A stretch of DNA of 10,171 nucleotides, taken from NCBI GenBank assembly GCA_016286935.1, contig JAEEUO010000018.1, forward strand, positions 1 to 10,171, written 5' to 3'. Position 1 is the stretch's first letter. Every line of letters begins with the position of its first letter. The position numbers and the translations under genes were made by a program. Origin of the DNA: Bacillota bacterium (lineage in GTDB: Bacteria > Bacillota > Clostridia > Peptostreptococcales > Anaerovoracaceae). Positions 2,406 to 10,171 of the stretch are shown here, one piece after another. The notes below the pieces were generated by a model. That model made no database searches. It was not told the DNA's origin and worked only from the letters and a program-made list of their open reading frames with translations.

Positions 2406-2434
2406 TTGACGGAGAACCCGTTTTACGCTATACT
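2406..2434 (+). promoter_or_regulatory. Sigma-70/SigA-type promoter of the pyr operon
   Basis: TTGACG (2406-2411) and TATACT (2429-2434) are separated by exactly 17 bp, each one base from the consensus hexamers. They lie in the only AT-rich patch of an otherwise GC-rich window. Transcription should start near 2440-2442. The leader would then run about 50 nt to the start of pyrC. No other convincing promoter was seen in the window, so this one probably drives all seven pyrimidine genes. Confidence 0.85.
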
Positions 2435-2448
2435 GTTTCACGGTAAAA

Positions 2449-2481
2449 ATCTTTAATGCGGTCCAGAGAGACCGGAAAGAT
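2449..2481 (+). promoter_or_regulatory. PyrR-type RNA binding loop (UMP-responsive leader hairpin)
   Basis: The RNA can fold into a two-tier hairpin. The lower stem is ATCTTT (2449-2454) with AAAGAT (2476-2481). An asymmetric internal loop has AATG on the 5' side (2455-2458) and a single G on the 3' side (2475). The upper stem is CGGTC (2459-2463) with GACCG (2470-2474), and the terminal hexaloop is CAGAGA (2464-2469). The known PyrR target in Bacillus has this architecture, with consensus ARUCCNGNGAGGYU, in which the hexaloop is CNGNGA. Here GGUC-CAGAGA-GACC fits the hexaloop fully, and the one upper-stem change (G to A opposite U) keeps the pairing. PyrR binds this element when UMP is high. 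The hairpin begins ~8 nt after the predicted transcript start and ends next to the pyrC SD. No terminator or antiterminator fits in the leader, so control of translation initiation is inferred, as described for mycobacterial PyrR. pyrR itself is not in the window. Confidence 0.8.
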
Positions 2482-2494
2482 GAGGGATACTGTG
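2482..2494 (+). promoter_or_regulatory. Ribosome binding site and likely GTG start of pyrC
   Basis: GAGGGA at 2482-2487 is the only good Shine-Dalgarno match before pyrC. It stands 6 nt (measured from GAGG) before an in-frame GTG at 2492. Other in-frame starts are ATG 2456 (inside the PyrR-type hairpin, ~15 nt from the transcript start, no SD), ATG 2480 (its first two bases paired in the lower stem, weak GGA only) and ATG 2506 (SD too far away). The other pyr genes, apart from pyrK, have strong SDs, which favours GTG 2492. ATG 2480 remains possible. The SD starts directly after the hairpin, so PyrR bound there should block ribosome access. Confidence 0.55.
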
Positions 2495-3634
2495 ACTTAC
2501 GTTAACATGCTCAAACCGCACAGCGGACTGTCTTTTGACACGGCGCTCCGTGCGGATTTTTTGTCCCCCGACCGGGAGTATGTTCTCCTCCCCGGCTTCT
2601 GCGATGTCCACGTACATTTCCGCGAGCCGGGGTTTTCGTATAAGGAGACGATCCGGACGGGAAGCCTCGCGGCGGCGCGCGGCGGCTATACGGCCGTGTT
2701 CGCGATGCCGAATCTGAATCCGGTGCCCGACAGCGCGGAACACCTCGAAGCGGAGATGGCGATCATCCGCCGCGACGCGGCCGTTCCCGTCCTGCCCTAC
2801 GCGTCGATCACGGTCGGCGAGAAGGGCGAACAGCTCGCCGATCTCGAGGCCCTCGCGGCGGCCGGCGCCGTCGCGTTCTCCGACGACGGCCGCGGCGTTC
2901 AGTCCCGCGCGATGATGCGCGAGGCGATGGAGCGCGCGAAGGCGCTCGGGAAGGTCATCGTCGCCCACTGCGAGGATGAGGCGTACCCGGCCGAAGACCC
3001 GAGAAGCGAGTGGAAGGAGGTCGAACGCGACCTGATCCTCGCGGACGAGACGGGCGCGGCCTTCCACGCCTGCCACATCTCCTCGAAGGAATCGGTCGAC
3101 CTGATCCGCGACGCGAAAAAGAACGGCGTGGACGCGACGTGCGAGACGGCGCCCCACTACCTGGCTCTCGACGACACGATGCTCGAGGACGACGGCCGGT
3201 TCAAAATGAACCCGCCGGTCCGCACAAAACGCGACCGCGAGGCGCTGCTCGAGGCGGTAGCGGACGGGACGGTCGACATGATCGCGACGGACCACGCGCC
3301 CCACAGCGCGGAGGAGAAGGCGCGCGGGTTCGCGAAGAGCCTGAACGGGATCGTCGGGCTGGAAACGGCCTTCCCGGTCCTCTATACGGACCTCGTGCGC
3401 GGCGGGATCGTGACGCTCGGGACGCTCGTCCGATTGCTCGCGGAGAACCCGCGGAAGCGGTTCGGCCTCCCGGAGGACGGCGGCTTCGCGGTGTGGGATC
3501 TGAACGCGGAATACGCGGTCGACCCGGCGGAGTTCCTCTCGATGGGGAAGTCGTGCCCGTTCACCGGCCGGCGCGTCTTCGGACGGAACAAACTGACCGT
3601 CCTGAACGGGACCGCGGTCTTCAAGGAGTTATAA
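2492..3634 (+). CDS. pyrC: Dihydroorotase (class I, PyrC)
   Basis: This enzyme closes N-carbamoyl-L-aspartate to dihydroorotate, the third step of UMP synthesis, in the cytosol. It is 380 aa from the GTG chosen on SD grounds (392 aa if ATG 2456 is used). It has the amidohydrolase barrel motifs with all expected zinc ligands, numbered from GTG: H40 and H42 in DVHVHFREPG, an aspartate of the SDDG motif (131/132), H159 in HCED, H195 in CHISS and D267 in ATDHAPH. An aspartate in place of a carboxylated lysine as bridging ligand is what the Bacillus/Aquifex class I enzymes use. The spacing between HCED and CHIS is 36 residues, clearly shorter than in B. subtilis PyrC as I recall it (~53). The N-terminal beta-sandwich is also abbreviated. 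It is the first gene after the promoter and PyrR-type hairpin, and carB follows after 27 nt. Confidence 0.94.
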   Translation: MTYVNMLKPHSGLSFDTALRADFLSPDREYVLLPGFCDVHVHFREPGFSYKETIRTGSLAAARGGYTAVFAMPNLNPVPDSAEHLEAEMAIIRRDAAVPVLPYASITVGEKGEQLADLEALAAAGAVAFSDDGRGVQSRAMMREAMERAKALGKVIVAHCEDEAYPAEDPRSEWKEVERDLILADETGAAFHACHISSKESVDLIRDAKKNGVDATCETAPHYLALDDTMLEDDGRFKMNPPVRTKRDREALLEAVADGTVDMIATDHAPHSAEEKARGFAKSLNGIVGLETAFPVLYTDLVRGGIVTLGTLVRLLAENPRKRFGLPEDGGFAVWDLNAEYAVDPAEFLSMGKSCPFTGRRVFGRNKLTVLNGTAVFKEL

Positions 3635-3661: not shown

Positions 3662-6600
3662 ATGGCGAAAAATACGGATATCAAGAAGGTTCTCATCATC
3701 GGCTCCGGCCCGATCGTCATCGGCCAGGCCGCCGAATTCGACTACGCGGGGACGCAGGCCTGCCTCGCGCTGAAGGAGGAGGGCTACAAGGTCATCCTCT
3801 GCAACTCGAACCCCGCGACGATCATGACCGACACGTCGATCGCGGACAAGGTCTATATGGAGCCGCTGACGCTCGAATACATCGCGAAGATCCTGCGGTA
3901 CGAACGGCCCGACGCGATCGTTCCCGGCATCGGCGGACAGACCGGCCTGAACCTCGCGATGCAGCTCGAGAAGAAGGGCGTCCTCGCCGAGTGCGGCGTG
4001 AAGCTGCTCGGTACGCCGAGCACGTCGATCGAACGCGCCGAGGACCGCGAACTGTTCAAGGAGATGTGCCAGTCGATCGGTGAACCGGTCATCCCCTCCG
4101 AGATCACCTACAGCCTGGAGGAGGCGAAGGCCGCCGCGGGCCGCATCGGCTATCCGGTCGTTCTGCGCCCCGCCTTCACGCTCGGCGGAACGGGCGGCGG
4201 GTTCGCGTACGACGAGGAGGAACTCGTCGAGGTCGGCACGAACGCCTTCCGCCTCTCGCCCGTCCACCAGGTCCTGATCGAGAAGAGCGTCAAAGGCTAT
4301 AAGGAGATCGAGTTCGAGGTCATGCGCGACTCGACCGACCGCGCGATCACGATCTGCGGCATGGAAAACGTCGATCCCGTCGGCGTCCACACCGGCGACT
4401 CGATCGTCGTCGCCCCGATCCTCTCGCTGAACGACCACGATCTCAAAATGCTGAACGACAGCGCCCTCAAGATCATCCGCGAACTGAAGATCGAAGGCGG
4501 CTGCAACGTCCAGTTCGCGCTCAACCCGGATTCGAGCGAATACTACCTGATCGAAGTCAATCCGCGCGTGTCGCGTTCGTCGGCGCTCGCCTCGAAGGCG
4601 TCCGGCTATCCGATCGCGCGCGTGACCGCGAAGATCGCCGTCGGCATGACGCTCGACGAGATCCCGGTCGCGGGCGGAACGGCGGCGAACGAGCCCGTGC
4701 TCGACTACTTCGTCGCGAAGTTCCCGCGCTTCCCGTTCGACAAGTTCGCGTCCGCCTCGAACAAGCTCGGCACCCAGATGAAGGCGACCGGCGAGGTCAT
4801 GGGCATCGGCTCGACGCTTGAGGAATGCATGCTCAAATCCGTCCGCTCGCTCGAGACGGGCGTCGTCCACTTCCACATGGCGAAGTTCGACGAGACCTCA
4901 ACCGACGACCTTCTGGCCTACGTCGGCGAGTTCCGCGACGACGGCGTGTTCGCGGTGTTCGAGCTGCTCCGCCGCGGCGTTTCGATCGCGGAGATCCACG
5001 ACCGCACGATGATCACCGAACTCTTCCTCGAATCGTTCGCGAAGATCGTCGCGATGGAGAAGAAGCTGAAGGAACACGTCAACGAGGTCCCCGTCCTCCG
5101 CGAGGCGAAAAAGATGGGCTTCTCGGATGCGTGGATCGCGGACGCGTGGAAGCTGACCGAGGTCGAGGTCTACGAAAAACGCAAGGCCCATAAGATCACG
5201 CCCGTCTTCCGCATGGTCGACACGCTCCACACCGGAAAATACATCGCCTATCTCTACTCGTCCTACACCGGAAAGAACGATTCGCGCCTCGGCGACAGGA
5301 AAAAGATCGTCGTCCTCGGCGCCGGCCCGATCCGCATCGGCCAGGGCGTCGAATTCGACTATTCGACCGTCCACGCCGTTCAGACGATCCGCCGCAACGG
5401 CTACGAATCGATCATCATCAACAACAACCCCGAAACGGTCTCGACCGACTACACGACGGCCGACAAGCTCTATTTCGAGCCGCTGACGCCCGAAGACGTG
5501 ATGGCGATCCTCGATTTTGAAAAGCCCGAGGGCGTCATTGCCTCCCTCGGCGGCCAGACCGCGATCAACCTCGCGGAGCCTCTGATGGAGCGCGGCGTGA
5601 AGATCATCGGCACGGACTGCGAGGCGATCGAGCGCGCGGAGAACCGCGACAGCTTCGAGAAGGTCCTGATCGATCTCGGCATCCCCCAGCCCCCGGGGCA
5701 CGCGGTGACGCGGATCGAGGACGGCGTCAAGGCCGCGGAGGAGATCGGCTATCCGGTCCTCGTCCGCCCGTCGTTCGTGCTCGGCGGCCGCGCGATGCAG
5801 GTCGTCGCGAGCGAGGCCCAGCTCCGCCATTATCTCAAGACGGCCGTCGAGATCGACGCCGACAAGCCCGTCCTCGTCGACAAGTACATCCTCGGCAAGG
5901 AGGTCGAGATCGACGCGATCTGCGACGGGCGCGACGTGTTCGTTCCGGGCATCATGGAACTCGTCGAGCGGACCGGCATCCACTCCGGCGACTCGATCTC
6001 CGTCTACCCGCCGTTCTCGATCTCGAACAAGGTCAAGGGCACGATCCTCCAGTACGCGAAGAAGCTCGGCCTCGGGATCGGCATCAAAGGCCTCTACAAC
6101 ATCCAGTTCATCGTCGACCGCAACGATGACGTCTACATCATCGAGGTCAACCCGCGCTCCTCGCGCACCGTCCCGTTCCTCTCGAAGGCGACCGGCTATT
6201 CCCTCGCCGACATCGCGACCGAGGTCATCCTCGGCAAATCGCTGAAGGAGCAGGGCATCTTCGACCTCTACGCGGAGGAGAAGAAGCGCTTCTACGTCAA
6301 GGTCCCCGTCTTCTCGTTCAACAAGATCAAGGGCCTCGACGCGTACCTCTCTCCCGAGATGAAATCGACGGGCGAGGCGATCGGCTACGACGACAAGCTC
6401 AACCGCGCGCTCTACAAGGCGCTCCAGGCCGGCGGAACGAAGCTCCGCTCCTACGGCACGGTCTTCGCGACGATCGCCGACGCCGACAAGGAGGAGGCGC
6501 TCCCGCTCATCCGCCGCTTCTACAACCTCGGCTTCAACATCCAGGCGACCGCGGGCACGGCGAAGTTCCTCAAGGCGAACGGCATCCGCACCCACGTCCT

Positions 6601-6835
6601 CGGCAAGATCAGCGACGGCTCCGACGAGATCCCCGAGGCGATCCGCAAGGGCTACATCGCCTTCATCATCAACACGCGCGACATCTCCAACGCGACGGAG
6701 GCGACGGACGGCTCGATGATCCGACAGCTCGCGACCGAGAACAACGCGACGATCTTCACGTCGCTCGACACGGTCCGCGTCCTGCTCGACGTCCTCGAGG
6801 AGACGACGCTGACGATCTCGACGATCGACGCGTAG
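3662..6835 (+). CDS. carB: Carbamoyl-phosphate synthase large subunit
   Basis: This subunit makes carbamoyl phosphate from bicarbonate, ammonia and two ATP; the ammonia normally comes from the CarA glutaminase. It has 1057 aa, close to the family's ~1070. Two homologous ATP-grasp halves are plain. The first begins with KVLIIGSGPIVIGQAAEFDY (~9-28) and has RPAFTLGGTGGG with R169 at the E. coli position and VNPRVSRSSALASK. The second begins near residue 547 with VVLGAGPIRIGQGVEFDY and has RPSFVLGG and EVNPRSSRTVPFLSK. The last ~125 residues (from ~932) form the MGS-like allosteric domain with TAGTAKFL, which binds effectors such as UMP in characterised enzymes. AGGAG at 3649-3653 precedes the ATG by 8 nt. 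The operon context suggests the pyrimidine-type synthase, but the product may also serve arginine synthesis. carA is not adjacent (see findings). Confidence 0.98.
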   Translation: MAKNTDIKKVLIIGSGPIVIGQAAEFDYAGTQACLALKEEGYKVILCNSNPATIMTDTSIADKVYMEPLTLEYIAKILRYERPDAIVPGIGGQTGLNLAMQLEKKGVLAECGVKLLGTPSTSIERAEDRELFKEMCQSIGEPVIPSEITYSLEEAKAAAGRIGYPVVLRPAFTLGGTGGGFAYDEEELVEVGTNAFRLSPVHQVLIEKSVKGYKEIEFEVMRDSTDRAITICGMENVDPVGVHTGDSIVVAPILSLNDHDLKMLNDSALKIIRELKIEGGCNVQFALNPDSSEYYLIEVNPRVSRSSALASKASGYPIARVTAKIAVGMTLDEIPVAGGTAANEPVLDYFVAKFPRFPFDKFASASNKLGTQMKATGEVMGIGSTLEECMLKSVRSLETGVVHFHMAKFDETSTDDLLAYVGEFRDDGVFAVFELLRRGVSIAEIHDRTMITELFLESFAKIVAMEKKLKEHVNEVPVLREAKKMGFSDAWIADAWKLTEVEVYEKRKAHKITPVFRMVDTLHTGKYIAYLYSSYTGKNDSRLGDRKKIVVLGAGPIRIGQGVEFDYSTVHAVQTIRRNGYESIIINNNPETVSTDYTTADKLYFEPLTPEDVMAILDFEKPEGVIASLGGQTAINLAEPLMERGVKIIGTDCEAIERAENRDSFEKVLIDLGIPQPPGHAVTRIEDGVKAAEEIGYPVLVRPSFVLGGRAMQVVASEAQLRHYLKTAVEIDADKPVLVDKYILGKEVEIDAICDGRDVFVPGIMELVERTGIHSGDSISVYPPFSISNKVKGTILQYAKKLGLGIGIKGLYNIQFIVDRNDDVYIIEVNPRSSRTVPFLSKATGYSLADIATEVILGKSLKEQGIFDLYAEEKKRFYVKVPVFSFNKIKGLDAYLSPEMKSTGEAIGYDDKLNRALYKALQAGGTKLRSYGTVFATIADADKEEALPLIRRFYNLGFNIQATAGTAKFLKANGIRTHVLGKISDGSDEIPEAIRKGYIAFIINTRDISNATEATDGSMIRQLATENNATIFTSLDTVRVLLDVLEETTLTISTIDA

Positions 6836-6841
6836 GGGCTA

Positions 6842-7363
6842 ATGCGAAACAGGGAAAGAACGAACACGATGCAGGAAAGAATCTTTACGATCGTATCGAA
6901 CGAACCGCTCGCGCGTGACACGTTCCGGATGGTCCTCACGGGAGATACGTCCGCGATCACGCGCCCCGGCCAGTTCGTCAATCTCAGGATCGGCGGGCTG
7001 TATCTGCGCCGTCCGATCTCCGTGTCGGATTCCGGTCCGGGGACGTGCCCGGCGGGGCTTCCCGGAGCCGGTCTGCCGATGGATTTTCTGACGCTGATCT
7101 ACAAGGTCGTCGGACAGGGAACGGAAGCGATGGCGGAGATGGGAAGCGACACGGAACTCGACGTACTCACGGGCCTCGGCAACGGCTTCGACGTGAGCCG
7201 CGCGGGCGGCAGGCCGCTCCTCATCGGCGGCGGCGTCGGCGTTCCGCCGCTCTATAAGCTCGCGAAGGAACTCACCGCGCGGGGATGCGCCGTAACGGCG
7301 GTCCTCGGCTTCAACACGGCGGACGAAGCCTTCTACGCGGACGAATTCCGCGCGCTCGGGTGA
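6842..7363 (+). CDS. pyrK: Dihydroorotate dehydrogenase electron-transfer subunit PyrK, N-terminal FAD/NAD-binding portion (ends at in-frame TGA)
   Basis: This is the ferredoxin-reductase-like part of PyrK, which passes electrons from PyrD's FMN through a [2Fe-2S] cluster and FAD to NAD+. It has 173 aa from ATG 6842. The family-like N-terminus QERIFTIVSNEPLARDTFRM fits ATG 6869 (165 aa) equally well, and neither start has a convincing SD. The FAD-binding motif RRPIS is at 56-60, with LIYKVVGQGT after it and the NAD-site loop GGGVGVPPLY at 129-138. A Gly/Pro-rich stretch at ~64-79 replaces the usual short loop. The reading frame is closed by TGA at 7361-7363 inside a normally continuous protein, and the missing iron-sulfur half follows in the same frame (7367-7645). 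Either the protein is made as two pieces, or this is a nonsense mutation or a sequence error. Confidence 0.88.
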   Translation: MRNRERTNTMQERIFTIVSNEPLARDTFRMVLTGDTSAITRPGQFVNLRIGGLYLRRPISVSDSGPGTCPAGLPGAGLPMDFLTLIYKVVGQGTEAMAEMGSDTELDVLTGLGNGFDVSRAGGRPLLIGGGVGVPPLYKLAKELTARGCAVTAVLGFNTADEAFYADEFRALG

Positions 7364-7369
7364 GCCATG
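7358..7369 (+). promoter_or_regulatory. Possible termination-reinitiation site inside pyrK
   Basis: GGGTGA (7358-7363) contains the in-frame stop TGA and also matches the GGUGA part of the extended anti-SD complement AAGGAGGUGAUC. An in-frame ATG follows after GCC, at 7367-7369. In that alignment the effective spacing from the SD core to the ATG is about 6 nt. A terminating ribosome could therefore restart here and make the second half of PyrK. The arrangement may be accidental. Confidence 0.35.
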
Positions 7370-7645
7370 ACCGTCGCGACGGCGGACGGCTCCGATGGCG
7401 TGAAGGGCTTCGTGACCGACGCGCTGCCCGGAGAGTGCTCGTACTATTACGCGTGCGGGCCGCTTCCGATGCTCCGCGCCGTTCACCGGAAGCTCGCCGC
7501 GGACGGCGAACTCAGCTTCGCCGAGCGGATGGGCTGCGGCTTCGGCGCCTGCATGGGCTGCACGATGATGACCGCGTCCGGCCCGAAGCGGATCTGCAAG
7601 GACGGGCCCGTGTTCCGGAAGGGGGAGATCGTATGGGACGACTGA
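7367..7645 (+). CDS. pyrK: PyrK, C-terminal [2Fe-2S] portion (in frame with the preceding part)
   Basis: This 92-aa stretch completes PyrK. It begins with TVATADGSDGVKGFVTDAL, which continues the NAD-binding domain. YACGPLPMLRAV (28-39) is the conserved nucleotide-domain end of this reductase family. The iron-sulfur cysteines are C57, C62, C65 and C77, in the pattern CGFGACMGC...ICKDGPVF (C-x4-C-x2-C-x11-C) that is diagnostic of PyrK. Joined through the TGA, the two parts span 267 sense codons, close to the normal ~256 aa. The frame is identical on both sides, so this is a stop and not a frameshift. All functional residues are intact, so selection seems to have held here or the lesion is very recent or artefactual. 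It ends in TGA, overlapping pyrD by 13 nt. Confidence 0.85.
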   Translation: MTVATADGSDGVKGFVTDALPGECSYYYACGPLPMLRAVHRKLAADGELSFAERMGCGFGACMGCTMMTASGPKRICKDGPVFRKGEIVWDD

Positions 7646-8544
7646 GCGTCAACCTCTGCGGGATCGAACTCGCGAATCCCGTGATCCCCGCGTCCGGAAC
7701 GTTCGGCTACGGGTATGAATTCGCGGACCTCTACGACATCGACTGCCTCGGGACGTTCTCGTTCAAGGGCACGACGAAGGAGCCGCGCCTCGGAAACGCG
7801 CTGCCAAGGATCGCGGAAGGACCGTCGGGCGTCCTGAACGCCGTCGGCCTTCAAAACCCGGGCGTCCGCGCCGTCATCGCGGAGGAGCTGCCGAAACTGA
7901 AGAAGGTATTCCACAAGCCGGTCATGGCGAACGTCAGCGGCTTCGCGGTCGACGAATACCGCGACACGGTCGCGCTGCTCGACGCGGAACCCCAGATCGG
8001 CTGGTTTGAGATCAACATCAGCTGTCCGAACGTCCACGGCGGCGGCATGTCCTTCGGAACGGATCCGAAGGCGGCGGCGGAGGTGACGCGCGCGGTGAAG
8101 GCCGTGACGCGAAAGCCCGTCATCATGAAGCTCTCGCCGAACGTGACGGACATCGCTTCGATCGCGAAGGCGTGCGAGGAAGCGGGCGCCGACGGCGTCA
8201 GCCTGATCAACACGCTCCTCGCGATGCGGATCGACCTCCGGACGAGGCGGCCGGTCCTCGCGAACGTGACGGGCGGCCTGTCCGGCCCTGCGGTCTTCCC
8301 GGTCGCGGTGCGGATGGTCTGGCAGGTCGCGAAGGCCGTATCGATCCCCGTCGTCGGCATCGGCGGCGTCGACTCCGCGGAGGCGGTGATCGAGATGATG
8401 GCGGCCGGCGCGACGGCCGTCGAGGTCGGCGCCGCGAACCTCGTCGATCCCTTCGCCGCGAAGCGGATCATCGACGGCCTTCCGGCGGCGATGGACAAAT
8501 ACGGGATCGGAGACATCAAAGACATCATCGGAGGTGCGCTGTAA
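7633..8544 (+). CDS. pyrD: Dihydroorotate dehydrogenase, catalytic subunit, class 1B (NAD+-linked)
   Basis: This enzyme oxidises dihydroorotate to orotate with FMN, in a complex with PyrK that hands electrons to NAD+. It has 303 aa. The class 1 features are SFKGTT with K45, NAVGLQNPG (69-77), and the active-site base C131 in NISCPNVHGGG; cysteine marks class 1 against the serine of class 2. VGIGGV and the C-terminal GATAVEVGAAN segment form the FMN phosphate site. The 1B assignment rests on the adjacent PyrK and on the sequence around GTDPKAAAEV. ATG 7633 is preceded by GGGGGAGA (7621-7628). The frame stays open further upstream (to 7285), but that extension lies over pyrK in another frame and does not look like PyrD. 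It overlaps pyrK by 13 nt, so translation is probably coupled. Confidence 0.96.
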   Translation: MGRLSVNLCGIELANPVIPASGTFGYGYEFADLYDIDCLGTFSFKGTTKEPRLGNALPRIAEGPSGVLNAVGLQNPGVRAVIAEELPKLKKVFHKPVMANVSGFAVDEYRDTVALLDAEPQIGWFEINISCPNVHGGGMSFGTDPKAAAEVTRAVKAVTRKPVIMKLSPNVTDIASIAKACEEAGADGVSLINTLLAMRIDLRTRRPVLANVTGGLSGPAVFPVAVRMVWQVAKAVSIPVVGIGGVDSAEAVIEMMAAGATAVEVGAANLVDPFAAKRIIDGLPAAMDKYGIGDIKDIIGGAL

Positions 8545-9242
8545 TGGGAAAAGACGTCATCATCGCGTGTGATTTCGCGTCCGCCGCGGAAACGTTCGCG
8601 TTTCTCGACCGCTTCACCGGGCGGAAGCCGTTCGTCAAGATCGGCATGGAACTCTTCTACGCGGAGGGGCCCGCGATCGTCCGCGAACTGAAAAGCCGCG
8701 GCCATAAGATCTTCCTCGACCTGAAGCTCCACGACATTCCGAACACCGTCAAAAAGGCGATGGCCGTTCTGTCGCGGCTCGACGCCGACGTCGTGAACGT
8801 CCACGCGGCGGGAACGACGGCGATGATGGAGGCGGCGCTCGAAGGCCTGACGCGGCCGGACGGCACGCGCCCGCTCCTGATCGCCGTGACCCAGCTCACC
8901 TCGACCGACCAGGCCGCGATGGAGCGCGACCTTCTGATCCGGGAGCCGATCGCGGACGTCGTCATGCACTACGCGGAGACGGCGAAGAACGCGGGGCTCG
9001 ACGGCGTCGTCTGCTCGCCGCTCGAGGCGGAACGCGTCCACGAAACGTGCGGGAGGGGCTTCCTGACCGTGACGCCCGGGATCCGCTTCGCGGACGGCGA
9101 GATCGGCGACCAGAAACGCATCATGACGCCCGCGGAGGCGAAGCGCATCGGCTCCGACTATATCGTCGTCGGGCGGCCGATCACGAAAGCGGACGACCCG
9201 GTCGCCGCGTATGAGCGCTGCATCGCCGAGTTCGTCGGCTGA
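8544..9242 (+). CDS. pyrF: Orotidine 5'-phosphate decarboxylase
   Basis: This enzyme decarboxylates OMP to UMP, the last step of the pathway. It has 232 aa, normal for the short bacterial subfamily shared by E. coli and B. subtilis. The catalytic DxKxxD motif is D59-L-K61-L-H-D64 within FLDLKLHDIPNTVK. The phosphate-binding segments are TPGIRF and IVVGRPIT near the C-terminus, and VNVHAAGT is also typical. The start overlaps the pyrD stop by one base (TAATG), and GGAGGTG at 8530-8536 is a strong SD. No unusual feature was seen. Confidence 0.97.
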   Translation: MGKDVIIACDFASAAETFAFLDRFTGRKPFVKIGMELFYAEGPAIVRELKSRGHKIFLDLKLHDIPNTVKKAMAVLSRLDADVVNVHAAGTTAMMEAALEGLTRPDGTRPLLIAVTQLTSTDQAAMERDLLIREPIADVVMHYAETAKNAGLDGVVCSPLEAERVHETCGRGFLTVTPGIRFADGEIGDQKRIMTPAEAKRIGSDYIVVGRPITKADDPVAAYERCIAEFVG

Positions 9243-9254
9243 AAGGAGATACGA

Positions 9255-9899
9255 ATGGAACGCAACGTATTGATCGCGACGGATCTTTTGAAAATAAAGG
9301 CGGTCTTCTTCCGGCCGGAGGAGCCGTTCACATGGGCGAGCGGGATCAAGAGCCCGATCTACTGCGACAACCGCCTGACGCTGACGGCGCCGGAGGTGCG
9401 CAATGACGTGGAGAACGCGTTCGCGGAGCTGATCCGCGCGAAGTACCCCGACGCGGAGGTCCTGATGGGCACGTCGACGGCGGGCATCGCCCACGCCGCG
9501 ATCACCGCCCACATCCTCGGCCTGCCGATGGGCTACGTCCGTTCGGGCGCGAAGGACCACGGCCGCCGGAACCGCATCGAAGGCCGCCTCGAACCCGGTC
9601 AGAAGGTCGTCGTCGTCGAGGATCTGATCTCGACGGGCGGCAGCGCGATCGAGGTCGTGGAGGCACTCCGGGAGGCCGGAGCGGACGTGCTCGGCATCGT
9701 CTCGATCTACACCTACGGCATGAAAAAGGCGGCGGACCGCCTCGCGGCGGCGGACGTGGAGAACACGTCCCTGACCGATTTCGACACGACGTGCCGCGTC
9801 GCGGCCGAACAGGGCTACGTCCGCCCGGAGGACGTCGAACGGCTGATGAAGTTCCGCGACGACCCGTCCGACGAAAGCTGGATCGGAGGTGCGAAATGA
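9255..9899 (+). CDS. pyrE: Orotate phosphoribosyltransferase
   Basis: This enzyme joins orotate and PRPP to give OMP, the substrate of PyrF encoded just upstream. It has 214 aa. The PRPP signature VVVVEDLISTGGSA is at 118-131. IKSPIYCDNR (31-40) is the orotate/PRPP loop, GTSTAGIAHAA (72-82) the second phosphate loop, and AKDHGRRNRIEG (99-110) carries the catalytic-loop lysine K100. AAAGGAG at 9242-9248 precedes the ATG by 6 nt, and 12 nt separate it from the pyrF stop. Its TGA overlaps the next start as ATGA. Length and motifs are ordinary for the Bacillota-type enzyme. Confidence 0.97.
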   Translation: MERNVLIATDLLKIKAVFFRPEEPFTWASGIKSPIYCDNRLTLTAPEVRNDVENAFAELIRAKYPDAEVLMGTSTAGIAHAAITAHILGLPMGYVRSGAKDHGRRNRIEGRLEPGQKVVVVEDLISTGGSAIEVVEALREAGADVLGIVSIYTYGMKKAADRLAAADVENTSLTDFDTTCRVAAEQGYVRPEDVERLMKFRDDPSDESWIGGAK

Positions 9900-10171
9900 A
9901 GGCGGTGCTCGATATCCTCGACCTCTCGACGGATGAGCTTGAGGAGCTGATCGCAAAGGCGGAGGACATCATCGCCCATCCCGCGAAGTACGCCCACGCG
10001 GCGGACGGCAAGAAGCTCGCGACGCTGTTCTTCGAACCGTCGACCCGCACGCGCATGAGCTTCGAGGCGGCGATGTACGAGCTCGGCGGCCACGTCATCA
10101 CCACGGCCGGCGTCGATTCGTCGTCCGCGTCGAAGGGCGCAAGCGTGGCGGTCACCGCGAAGACCGTCTCG
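9896..10171 (+). CDS. pyrB: Aspartate carbamoyltransferase, catalytic subunit (3' truncated by window)
   Basis: The first 92 codons of an enzyme that transfers the carbamoyl group to aspartate, the second step of the pathway. The carbamoyl-phosphate binding motif is seen in FFEPSTRTRMSFEAAMYELG, followed by the SSSASKGAS loop. That SSS-x-x-KG form points to aspartate rather than ornithine carbamoyltransferase; the latter has a different loop there. The start overlaps pyrE (ATGA), with GGAGG at 9885-9889 and 6 nt spacing. The gene stands last among the pyr genes seen here rather than first as in Bacillus. The C-terminal aspartate-binding domain, and whether pyrI, carA or other genes follow, lie outside the window. 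Confidence 0.93.
   Translation, partial: MKAVLDILDLSTDELEELIAKAEDIIAHPAKYAHAADGKKLATLFFEPSTRTRMSFEAAMYELGGHVITTAGVDSSSASKGASVAVTAKTVS

Follow-up and report, generated by a model that had tools for sequence, protein, structure and literature searches.

A PyrR binding loop adjoining the pyrC start in a Clostridia pyr operon, and terminator-like hairpins inside the pyrC frame

How might PyrR control a pyr operon when its binding loop lies directly against the Shine-Dalgarno (SD) sequence and the start codon of pyrC, the first of the pyr genes in the row? The question is raised by the stretch of DNA analysed here, hereafter the window, which is one complete contig of 10,171 bp from a draft assembly, G000, of 304 contigs that total 1.48 Mb at 80.7% completeness, and on which NCBIfam profiles identify, in this order, ysxC/engB, threonine ammonia-lyase, pyrC, carB, pyrK, pyrD, pyrF, pyrE and pyrB (Table 1). 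The closest named PyrC genes (the best 80 among the matches listed) show 56–65% identity and belong for the most part to genomes that were derived from metagenomes and bear the label Oscillospiraceae, Ruminococcaceae or Clostridia. As for the other pyr genes, the pyrK frame is split by an in-frame TGA, each piece separately matching the same NCBIfam families, an interruption that may be a sequencing error, a recent mutation or real; carA lies apart from the operon on another contig (G000:C234:3378-4406), where neither the genome-wide RF00515 search nor the loop-model search found a PyrR loop.

Table 1. Features of the window, with the pyrR locus on a second contig (positions refer to the window unless another contig is named).
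Feature	Position	Strand	Details and basis
Sigma-70-like promoter	2406..2434	+	TTGACG 2406-2411, 17-nt spacer, TATACT 2429-2434; 10/12 matches
Possible outer stem	2440..2493	+	2440-2445/2488-2493, transcript 5′ end with start codon region; folding prediction
PyrR binding loop (BL)	2449..2481	+	lower stem 2449-2454/2476-2481, upper stem 2459-2463/2470-2474, hexaloop CAGAGA 2464-2469
SD-like GAGGGA	2482..2487	+	begins at the base right after BL; duplex −6.1 kcal/mol
pyrC (dihydroorotase)	2492..3634	+	NCBIfam; most likely GTG 2492, ATG 2507 possible
Terminator-like hairpin 1	2516..2562	+	stem 2516-2555 (−19.5 kcal/mol), A, U6 2557-2562; within first 24 codons
Terminator-like hairpin 2	2590..2636	+	CCCCGG 2590-2595/CCGGGG 2627-2632, then U4; codons of PGFCDVHVHFREPGFSY
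carB	3662..6835	+	NCBIfam
pyrK-like frame	6842..7645	+	in-frame TGA at 7361-7363; NCBIfam, frame reading
pyrD	7633..8544	+	NCBIfam; start set by frame reading, search begun at 7642
pyrF	8544..9242	+	NCBIfam
pyrE	9255..9899	+	NCBIfam
pyrB	9896..10171	+	truncated by contig end; NCBIfam
pyrR and next ORF	G000:C242 (L009) 4331-6449	−	profile match; ORF by eye

The loop in front of pyrC and the pyrR gene

The hairpin at 2449-2481 reads AUCUUUAAUGCGGUC-CAGAGA-GACCGGAAAGAU and carries all the elements of a PyrR binding loop, namely a lower stem (AUCUUU/AAAGAU), an asymmetric internal loop that is larger on its 5′ side, an upper stem and a CNGNGA hexaloop; a first-pass annotation of the window had already assigned it to this type, an assignment that our comparison confirms. 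For the 33 nt of the hairpin, the folding energy is −9.1 kcal/mol (z −2.66), 5 of 200 shuffles doing as well, and the longer stretch 2440-2600 is unremarkable against shuffles (z −0.72). With the Rfam model RF00515, by which the annotation proposed to check the loop, the answer was mixed: BL is the best match in the whole genome (34.6 bits, E 0.003) and stays under the gathering score of 54 bits, at which nothing in the window matches; below gathering, the local match covers 181 bases and reaches 28.5 bits (E 0.022). The model spans 115 positions, including a second, terminator-like part; across 148 genomes of the family, 2 pass the cut-off and 69 have a match at E ≤ 1, and the short pyrC sites of four relatives (G112, G037, G117 and G047) score 32 to 38.5 bits. 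The Rfam PyrR model at its curated cut-off thus misses such sites, here as well as in these four relatives.

A model of the loop only (R1) was built from 24 aligned loops of the family, this BL included, with the loops carrying an extra internal base (31) left out. In this alignment, 4 of the 5 pairs of the upper stem show changes in both partners, and pairing holds in 94.3% of cells, compared with 31–48% in slid controls, so that the stems which the first-pass annotation expected to persist in relatives are indeed retained; four of five measures were reached by none of 500 shuffles, and the count of doubly changed pairs by 59 of 500. BL scores 49.5 bits with R1, although the scores of the genome's own two loops are not independent, since both are among the 24 training rows. 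Under strict filters, R1 finds a loop at E ≤ 0.05 in 83 of 296 family genomes and two in the genome studied here.

The second of these loops leads to the pyrR gene, whose presence the annotation's reading called for. It lies on contig C242 and matches NF003549 at 226.4 bits (cut-off 138), and PDB chains named PyrR align over almost the entire protein; the ORF that follows is, judging by eye, presumably a uracil permease. The elements of the pyrR leader are a separate promoter-like sequence, a loop (AUCUUUAAUGCGGUACCGAGAGACCGGCAAGAU) that closely resembles the pyrC loop, a complementary AUCUUGCC and a terminator whose U7 run abuts the pyrR ATG. In minimum-energy folds of the growing RNA, the pyrR loop yields to alternative pairing, whereas the pyrC loop keeps its upper stem in each of six such folds and no antiterminator that would open BL appears. 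One genome seems to hold a classical attenuator on pyrR and another arrangement on pyrC. As judged from sequence and comparison, the 2449-2481 hairpin is a real PyrR binding loop, to which PyrR would be expected to bind; a chance hairpin was considered and ruled out by conservation, covariation and the presence of pyrR.

The arrangement between loop and gene was the next point of the first-pass annotation, and it was found as described, with the SD beginning at 2482 directly after the hairpin. The promoter match (10/12, where 0.2 are expected in shuffles) predicts a transcript start at about 2440-2442. The SD duplex is −6.1 kcal/mol for GTG 2492, −2.1 for ATG 2507 and −3.3 for TTG 2561; GTG 2492 is the best of five candidate starts and the most likely start of pyrC. 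Neither a terminator filter nor folding of the growing RNA found an antiterminator/terminator pair between BL and this start, and the same architecture recurs in relatives, in agreement with the annotation's view that no attenuator intervenes.

Setting the start is of consequence, as it bears on a (near-)classical attenuation mechanism, in which hairpin 2516-2562 would be the terminator, PyrR would stabilise BL against an antiterminator, and pyrC would start at TTG 2561 or have its 5′ codons overlapped by the terminator. Such a mechanism could draw on the BL 5′ arm UGCGGU (2457-2462), which is complementary to ACCGCA (2515-2520), on a strong hairpin with a U6 run that codon choice would not lead one to expect, and on the sister locus L075, where the attenuator is compact and classical, with similar spacing, and the PyrC N-terminus has 6 residues. 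Against it stand the pyrC folds, which keep BL and show no antiterminator although the same method reveals one in the pyrR leader, and the coding character of 2492-2560, where the pyrC frame scores 19.6 log units above the other frames (0.9% of 2000 shuffles; p 0.009), even if codon usage over this stretch is weak (LLR −2.27, with 0.8% of in-frame windows equally low). Moreover, TTG 2561 has a poor SD, apparent PyrC N-terminal extensions of 25–45 residues are common in relatives, and DFLSPDREYVLL, which spans TTG 2561, matches the PyrC of relatives better than 1000 of 1000 shuffles, although its stretches minus the last five residues give no significant match to relatives (p 0.087 to 0.30). 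We consider attenuation of this kind improbable.

In the folding predictions, the SD lies outside the folded BL, and a bonus for bound BL does not reduce its predicted accessibility; masking of the SD by pairing within BL was thereby rejected as a candidate. Since the folded loop leaves the SD exposed, a block by PyrR would have to be steric, and the folding model suggests that PyrR beside the SD would probably exclude the 30S subunit. The short-leader stretches of four relatives fold no better than shuffles (z 0.26, −1.38, −0.48 and 1.25), which fits a protein-driven block and adds no folding support.

The same predictions offer an outer stem that would lengthen the PyrR hairpin, with a probability that reaches 0.99 when the RNA starts at 2440 and is folded to 2510. 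One could then take the loop for a relic or a chance look-alike free of PyrR control and let the outer stem and start-site choice regulate the gene; E. coli pyrC is regulated by start-site choice. However, the probability of this stem is at most 0.31 for starts 2440-2445 once the RNA extends to 2530, and the stem was not seen in the short leaders of the relatives examined, whereas the hexaloop and stems of BL are conserved and covarying and the genome has a pyrR gene whose own leader carries a closely similar loop, all of which makes the relic hardly credible.

Direct-start sites among relatives

From loci of the family we extracted 128 loop sites, labelling them short or attenuator-led by how long the leader is and whether a terminator is missing. 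Behind 107 of the 128 loops there is a terminator-like hairpin, one of these (L087) being spurious, as it lies inside the gene of a site where the gene starts directly at the loop (a direct-start site). The 21 loops without a terminator comprise 12 direct-start sites and 9 longer leaders, the latter (L020, L022, L118, L120, L130 and L134-L137) being kept in the attenuator class. Direct-start pyrC sites occur in the genome studied here, in six genomes of genus g38 and in two of g48, none of which shows a terminator between BL and the PyrC motif; direct-start pyrR sites occur in two g12 genomes (L087 and L098), the other g12 pyrR sites seen carrying terminators, and direct-start pyrB sites in g84 and g35, each time as the second loop of a tandem. 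Among the named PyrC loci, L144 has another short leader, with no terminator found within 300 nt. The short g38 leader of L122 has an almost identical counterpart at L177. Genus g38 is itself mixed, with attenuator-led pyrC in G205 and G248 (L141 and L142).

On a PyrC tree of 69 sequences with 10 short leaders, which is midpoint-rooted and whose bootstrap has not settled, the short label changes four times, and four changes are forced by well-supported branches; these changes may reflect horizontal transfer, or gain and loss. The pyrC studied here is sister to L075 (G003) on this tree. In L075, pyrR and pyrC are each led by a classical attenuator, and the intragenic pyrC hairpin is absent.

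Within the family, one base of the loop largely separates the two classes of sites. At 13 of 13 direct-start family sites, the position facing U6 holds a purine, by which the lower stem is restored or extended, and the same is true of 6 of the 114 others (127 of the 128 sites could be parsed); at attenuator sites this base is mostly C and part of the antiterminator. The Fisher value of this contrast (1.4e-13) is descriptive only because the sites within each set are related, and exceptions are found beyond the 127 sites, direct-start L144 and L240 having C and L244 having U. These exceptions, together with the mixed genus g38, lower the odds of the model that couples the loop to termination inside pyrC.

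An order-wide search for a loop with a near start matched 90 of 393 genomes, and the reversed pattern gave none among the matches listed; one has to bear in mind that this pattern also catches attenuator loops placed before a chance ATG, and we inspected 30 loci. Direct-start pyrB loops were found at seven of them, from six families (L226, L228, L231, L238, L240, L244 and L246), the loop at the pyrB start being the second of two in 6 of these 7. Tandem loops precede pyrB at L016/L231, L032, L226, L228, L238, L240 and L244, the second loop adjoining the SD and start of pyrB, as if one mRNA were controlled by PyrR at two levels; at L016/L231, L032, L238 and L244, the filter finds a terminator behind the upstream loop.

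At the scale of the phylum, loop-SD sites were found in 10 of 398 genomes, the present one included. None of the ten other loci clearly begins a biosynthetic pyr gene at the loop: 9 of the 10 lead into ORFs that are 3 to 25 codons long, and the loop site of L253 continues in frame into permease-like sequence. In L254-L262, which belong to other families of the phylum, a very short ORF (MYAYNMEPG or VKDDIFSG, for example) has its SD overlapped by the loop, and several of these show, by eye, terminator-like sequence behind the short ORF; we read them as leader-peptide attenuators.

PyrR sites at start codons, which the first-pass annotation took to be known mainly from mycobacteria, are apparently less confined, with direct-start sites both in the family and in the order. 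This distribution suggests that PyrR has switched repeatedly between control of transcription and control of translation within one family, using the same loop.

Terminator-like hairpins within pyrC

Two terminator-like hairpins inside the pyrC frame (Table 1) had escaped the first-pass annotation. The strength of hairpin 1 was attained by none of 3000 synonymous samples drawn with the codon usage of the window and by 1 of 3000 drawn with uniform usage, among 154 stretches of the genes in the window there is none as strong, and the + strand of the window has no T6 other than that of this hairpin; no counterpart was noticed among the best matches in the short-leader relatives scanned.

Hairpin 2 is formed by the codons of PGFCDVHVHFREPGFSY, which in related pyrC genes read CCCGG...CCGGG followed by U4-U7. 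A hairpin of −15 kcal/mol or lower with at least T4 is present at this site in 120 of 123 related pyrC genes, and 34 such hairpins occur elsewhere in 42,358 codons. Codon resampling with each gene's own usage (200 draws) gave p ≤ 0.05 in 115 of 132 genes, that is, in 115 of the 123 closer ones and none of the 9 distant ones. The synonymous conservation of this site is also seen column by column: among 198 conserved synonymous columns from 122 genes (median 0.39), the top three, TTT (0.98), CCG (0.97) and TAT (0.95), are neighbours in the 3′ arm and U-tract of the hairpin. Thirteen genes with PSF in place of PGF appear to retain the stem in a shifted register. RNAalifold returned almost no consensus (0.0 for 132 rows and −0.76 for 122 rows), so the case for hairpin 2 is built on codon resampling and codon identity, and not on covariation.

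A side observation concerns the 34 hairpins outside this site, 18 of which share one 30-nt bin, about 270-299 nt after the PGF codons; this bin is possibly a second conserved in-gene signal.

It would be tempting to take hairpin 2 as a sign of translational control by PyrR. At the −15 kcal/mol limit, it is found in 11 of 11 short-led and 58 of 59 attenuator-led genes; being present behind classical attenuators as well, it is a property of the gene and not of the PyrR site, and, being unspecific to short leaders, it is no evidence for translational control by PyrR. By these sequence measures, GC-rich hairpins and U-tracts in pyrC exceed what codon choice would lead one to expect, their role as terminators being putative, and the conserved hairpin points to a regulatory signal carried by synonymous codons of the enzyme's metal-binding motif.

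From a proposed block of pyrC to the operon, and known systems

The first-pass annotation let the block of pyrC repress an entire seven-gene operon, a claim that is not supported in this form: carB, pyrF, pyrE and pyrB have SDs of their own (duplexes of −13.1 kcal/mol for pyrF and pyrB, −8.0 for pyrE and −7.4 for carB), so a block of pyrC alone would be insufficient and a relay would be needed. The intragenic pyrC hairpins are candidates for such a relay to the rest of the operon.

We propose that PyrR, with UMP by analogy to Bacillus, would occupy BL just upstream of the pyrC SD and start and hinder ribosome loading, sterically rather than through pairing of the SD; the pyrC message, left untranslated, would expose the terminator-like hairpins in its first ~50 codons, and the translation block would thereby be relayed, as polarity, to transcription of the downstream pyr genes. 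That a translation-level block of pyrC by the PyrR loop operates here, of whatever kind, is what we hold with good confidence; that it acts on initiation and is relayed by intragenic termination is an account that we favour moderately. If true, premature termination following blocked translation would explain how seven genes are silenced via one start.

A leaner account keeps the block and drops the relay: pyrC would undergo pure translational repression, as in mycobacteria, and the downstream genes would drop through mRNA decay, coupling or Rho. The geometry of BL, SD and start, in this genome and in its relatives, speaks for it, and the U6 hairpin at 2516-2562, with no counterpart among the best matches in short-leader relatives, sits well with it; yet it assigns no role to the conserved hairpin 2 and its U-tract, which are under synonymous constraint, and the strong SDs of several downstream genes tell against it as well. 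We regard it as rather unlikely, if less so than attenuation.

The initiation block relayed by termination can be taken one step further, although this is put forward tentatively: the pyrC frame itself would be the attenuator, with PyrR gating ribosome entry and an intrinsic terminator in the PGFCDVHVHFREPGF codons, kept by synonymous selection, converting loss of translation into operon-wide loss of transcription. In relatives with PyrR leader attenuators, the in-gene terminator would be a second checkpoint that senses translation or, perhaps, UTP-dependent polymerase pausing.

In our literature search, which was thin on subscription papers, we recognised neither PyrR translational sites in Clostridia nor a terminator inside pyrC. 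Several known systems can nevertheless be set beside this locus. PyrR-dependent translational repression of the pyr operon was reportedly described in Mycobacterium smegmatis by Fields and Switzer in 2007; that system shares with the present one a BL at the ribosome binding site of the pyr operon, a leader free of an attenuator and a PyrR expected to block initiation. Unlike M. smegmatis, the present genome belongs to another phylum, the gene that would be blocked is pyrC, pyrR being encoded on a separate contig and led by an attenuator of its own, the SD is situated immediately beyond the loop, and the gene to be blocked contains terminator-like hairpins. A passage of PMC13328217 cites Fields and Switzer 2007 for translational repression in M. 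smegmatis.

The Bacillus pyr attenuators, as captured by RF00515, use the same loop, and the pyrR leader of the present genome is of that type; they differ from the pyrC leader, where no antiterminator-terminator pair was found between loop and start. In the parts consulted, PMC7430163 and PMC4347634 describe the Bacillus attenuator only, and PMC3766115, which covers 255 genomes, gives 211 as the figure for the PyrR motif, with no split by mechanism.

Closer in logic to the proposed relay are systems in which translation masks a terminator, although the frame being read is not the same. In the Thermus type, a PyrR site lies at a leader peptide with a coupled attenuator; both this type and the short-ORF leaders found across the phylum resemble the present locus in having a PyrR loop on an SD and, downstream, terminator-like sequence that translation could mask, and they differ in that a short leader peptide is translated there, whereas pyrC itself would be the frame here. 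In E. coli, pyrBI and pyrE have translation-coupled attenuators, whose terminator is masked by the translating ribosome, as we propose for pyrC; there, however, PyrR plays no part, the translated frame is a leader peptide and not an enzyme gene, and UTP-dependent pausing is the sensor.
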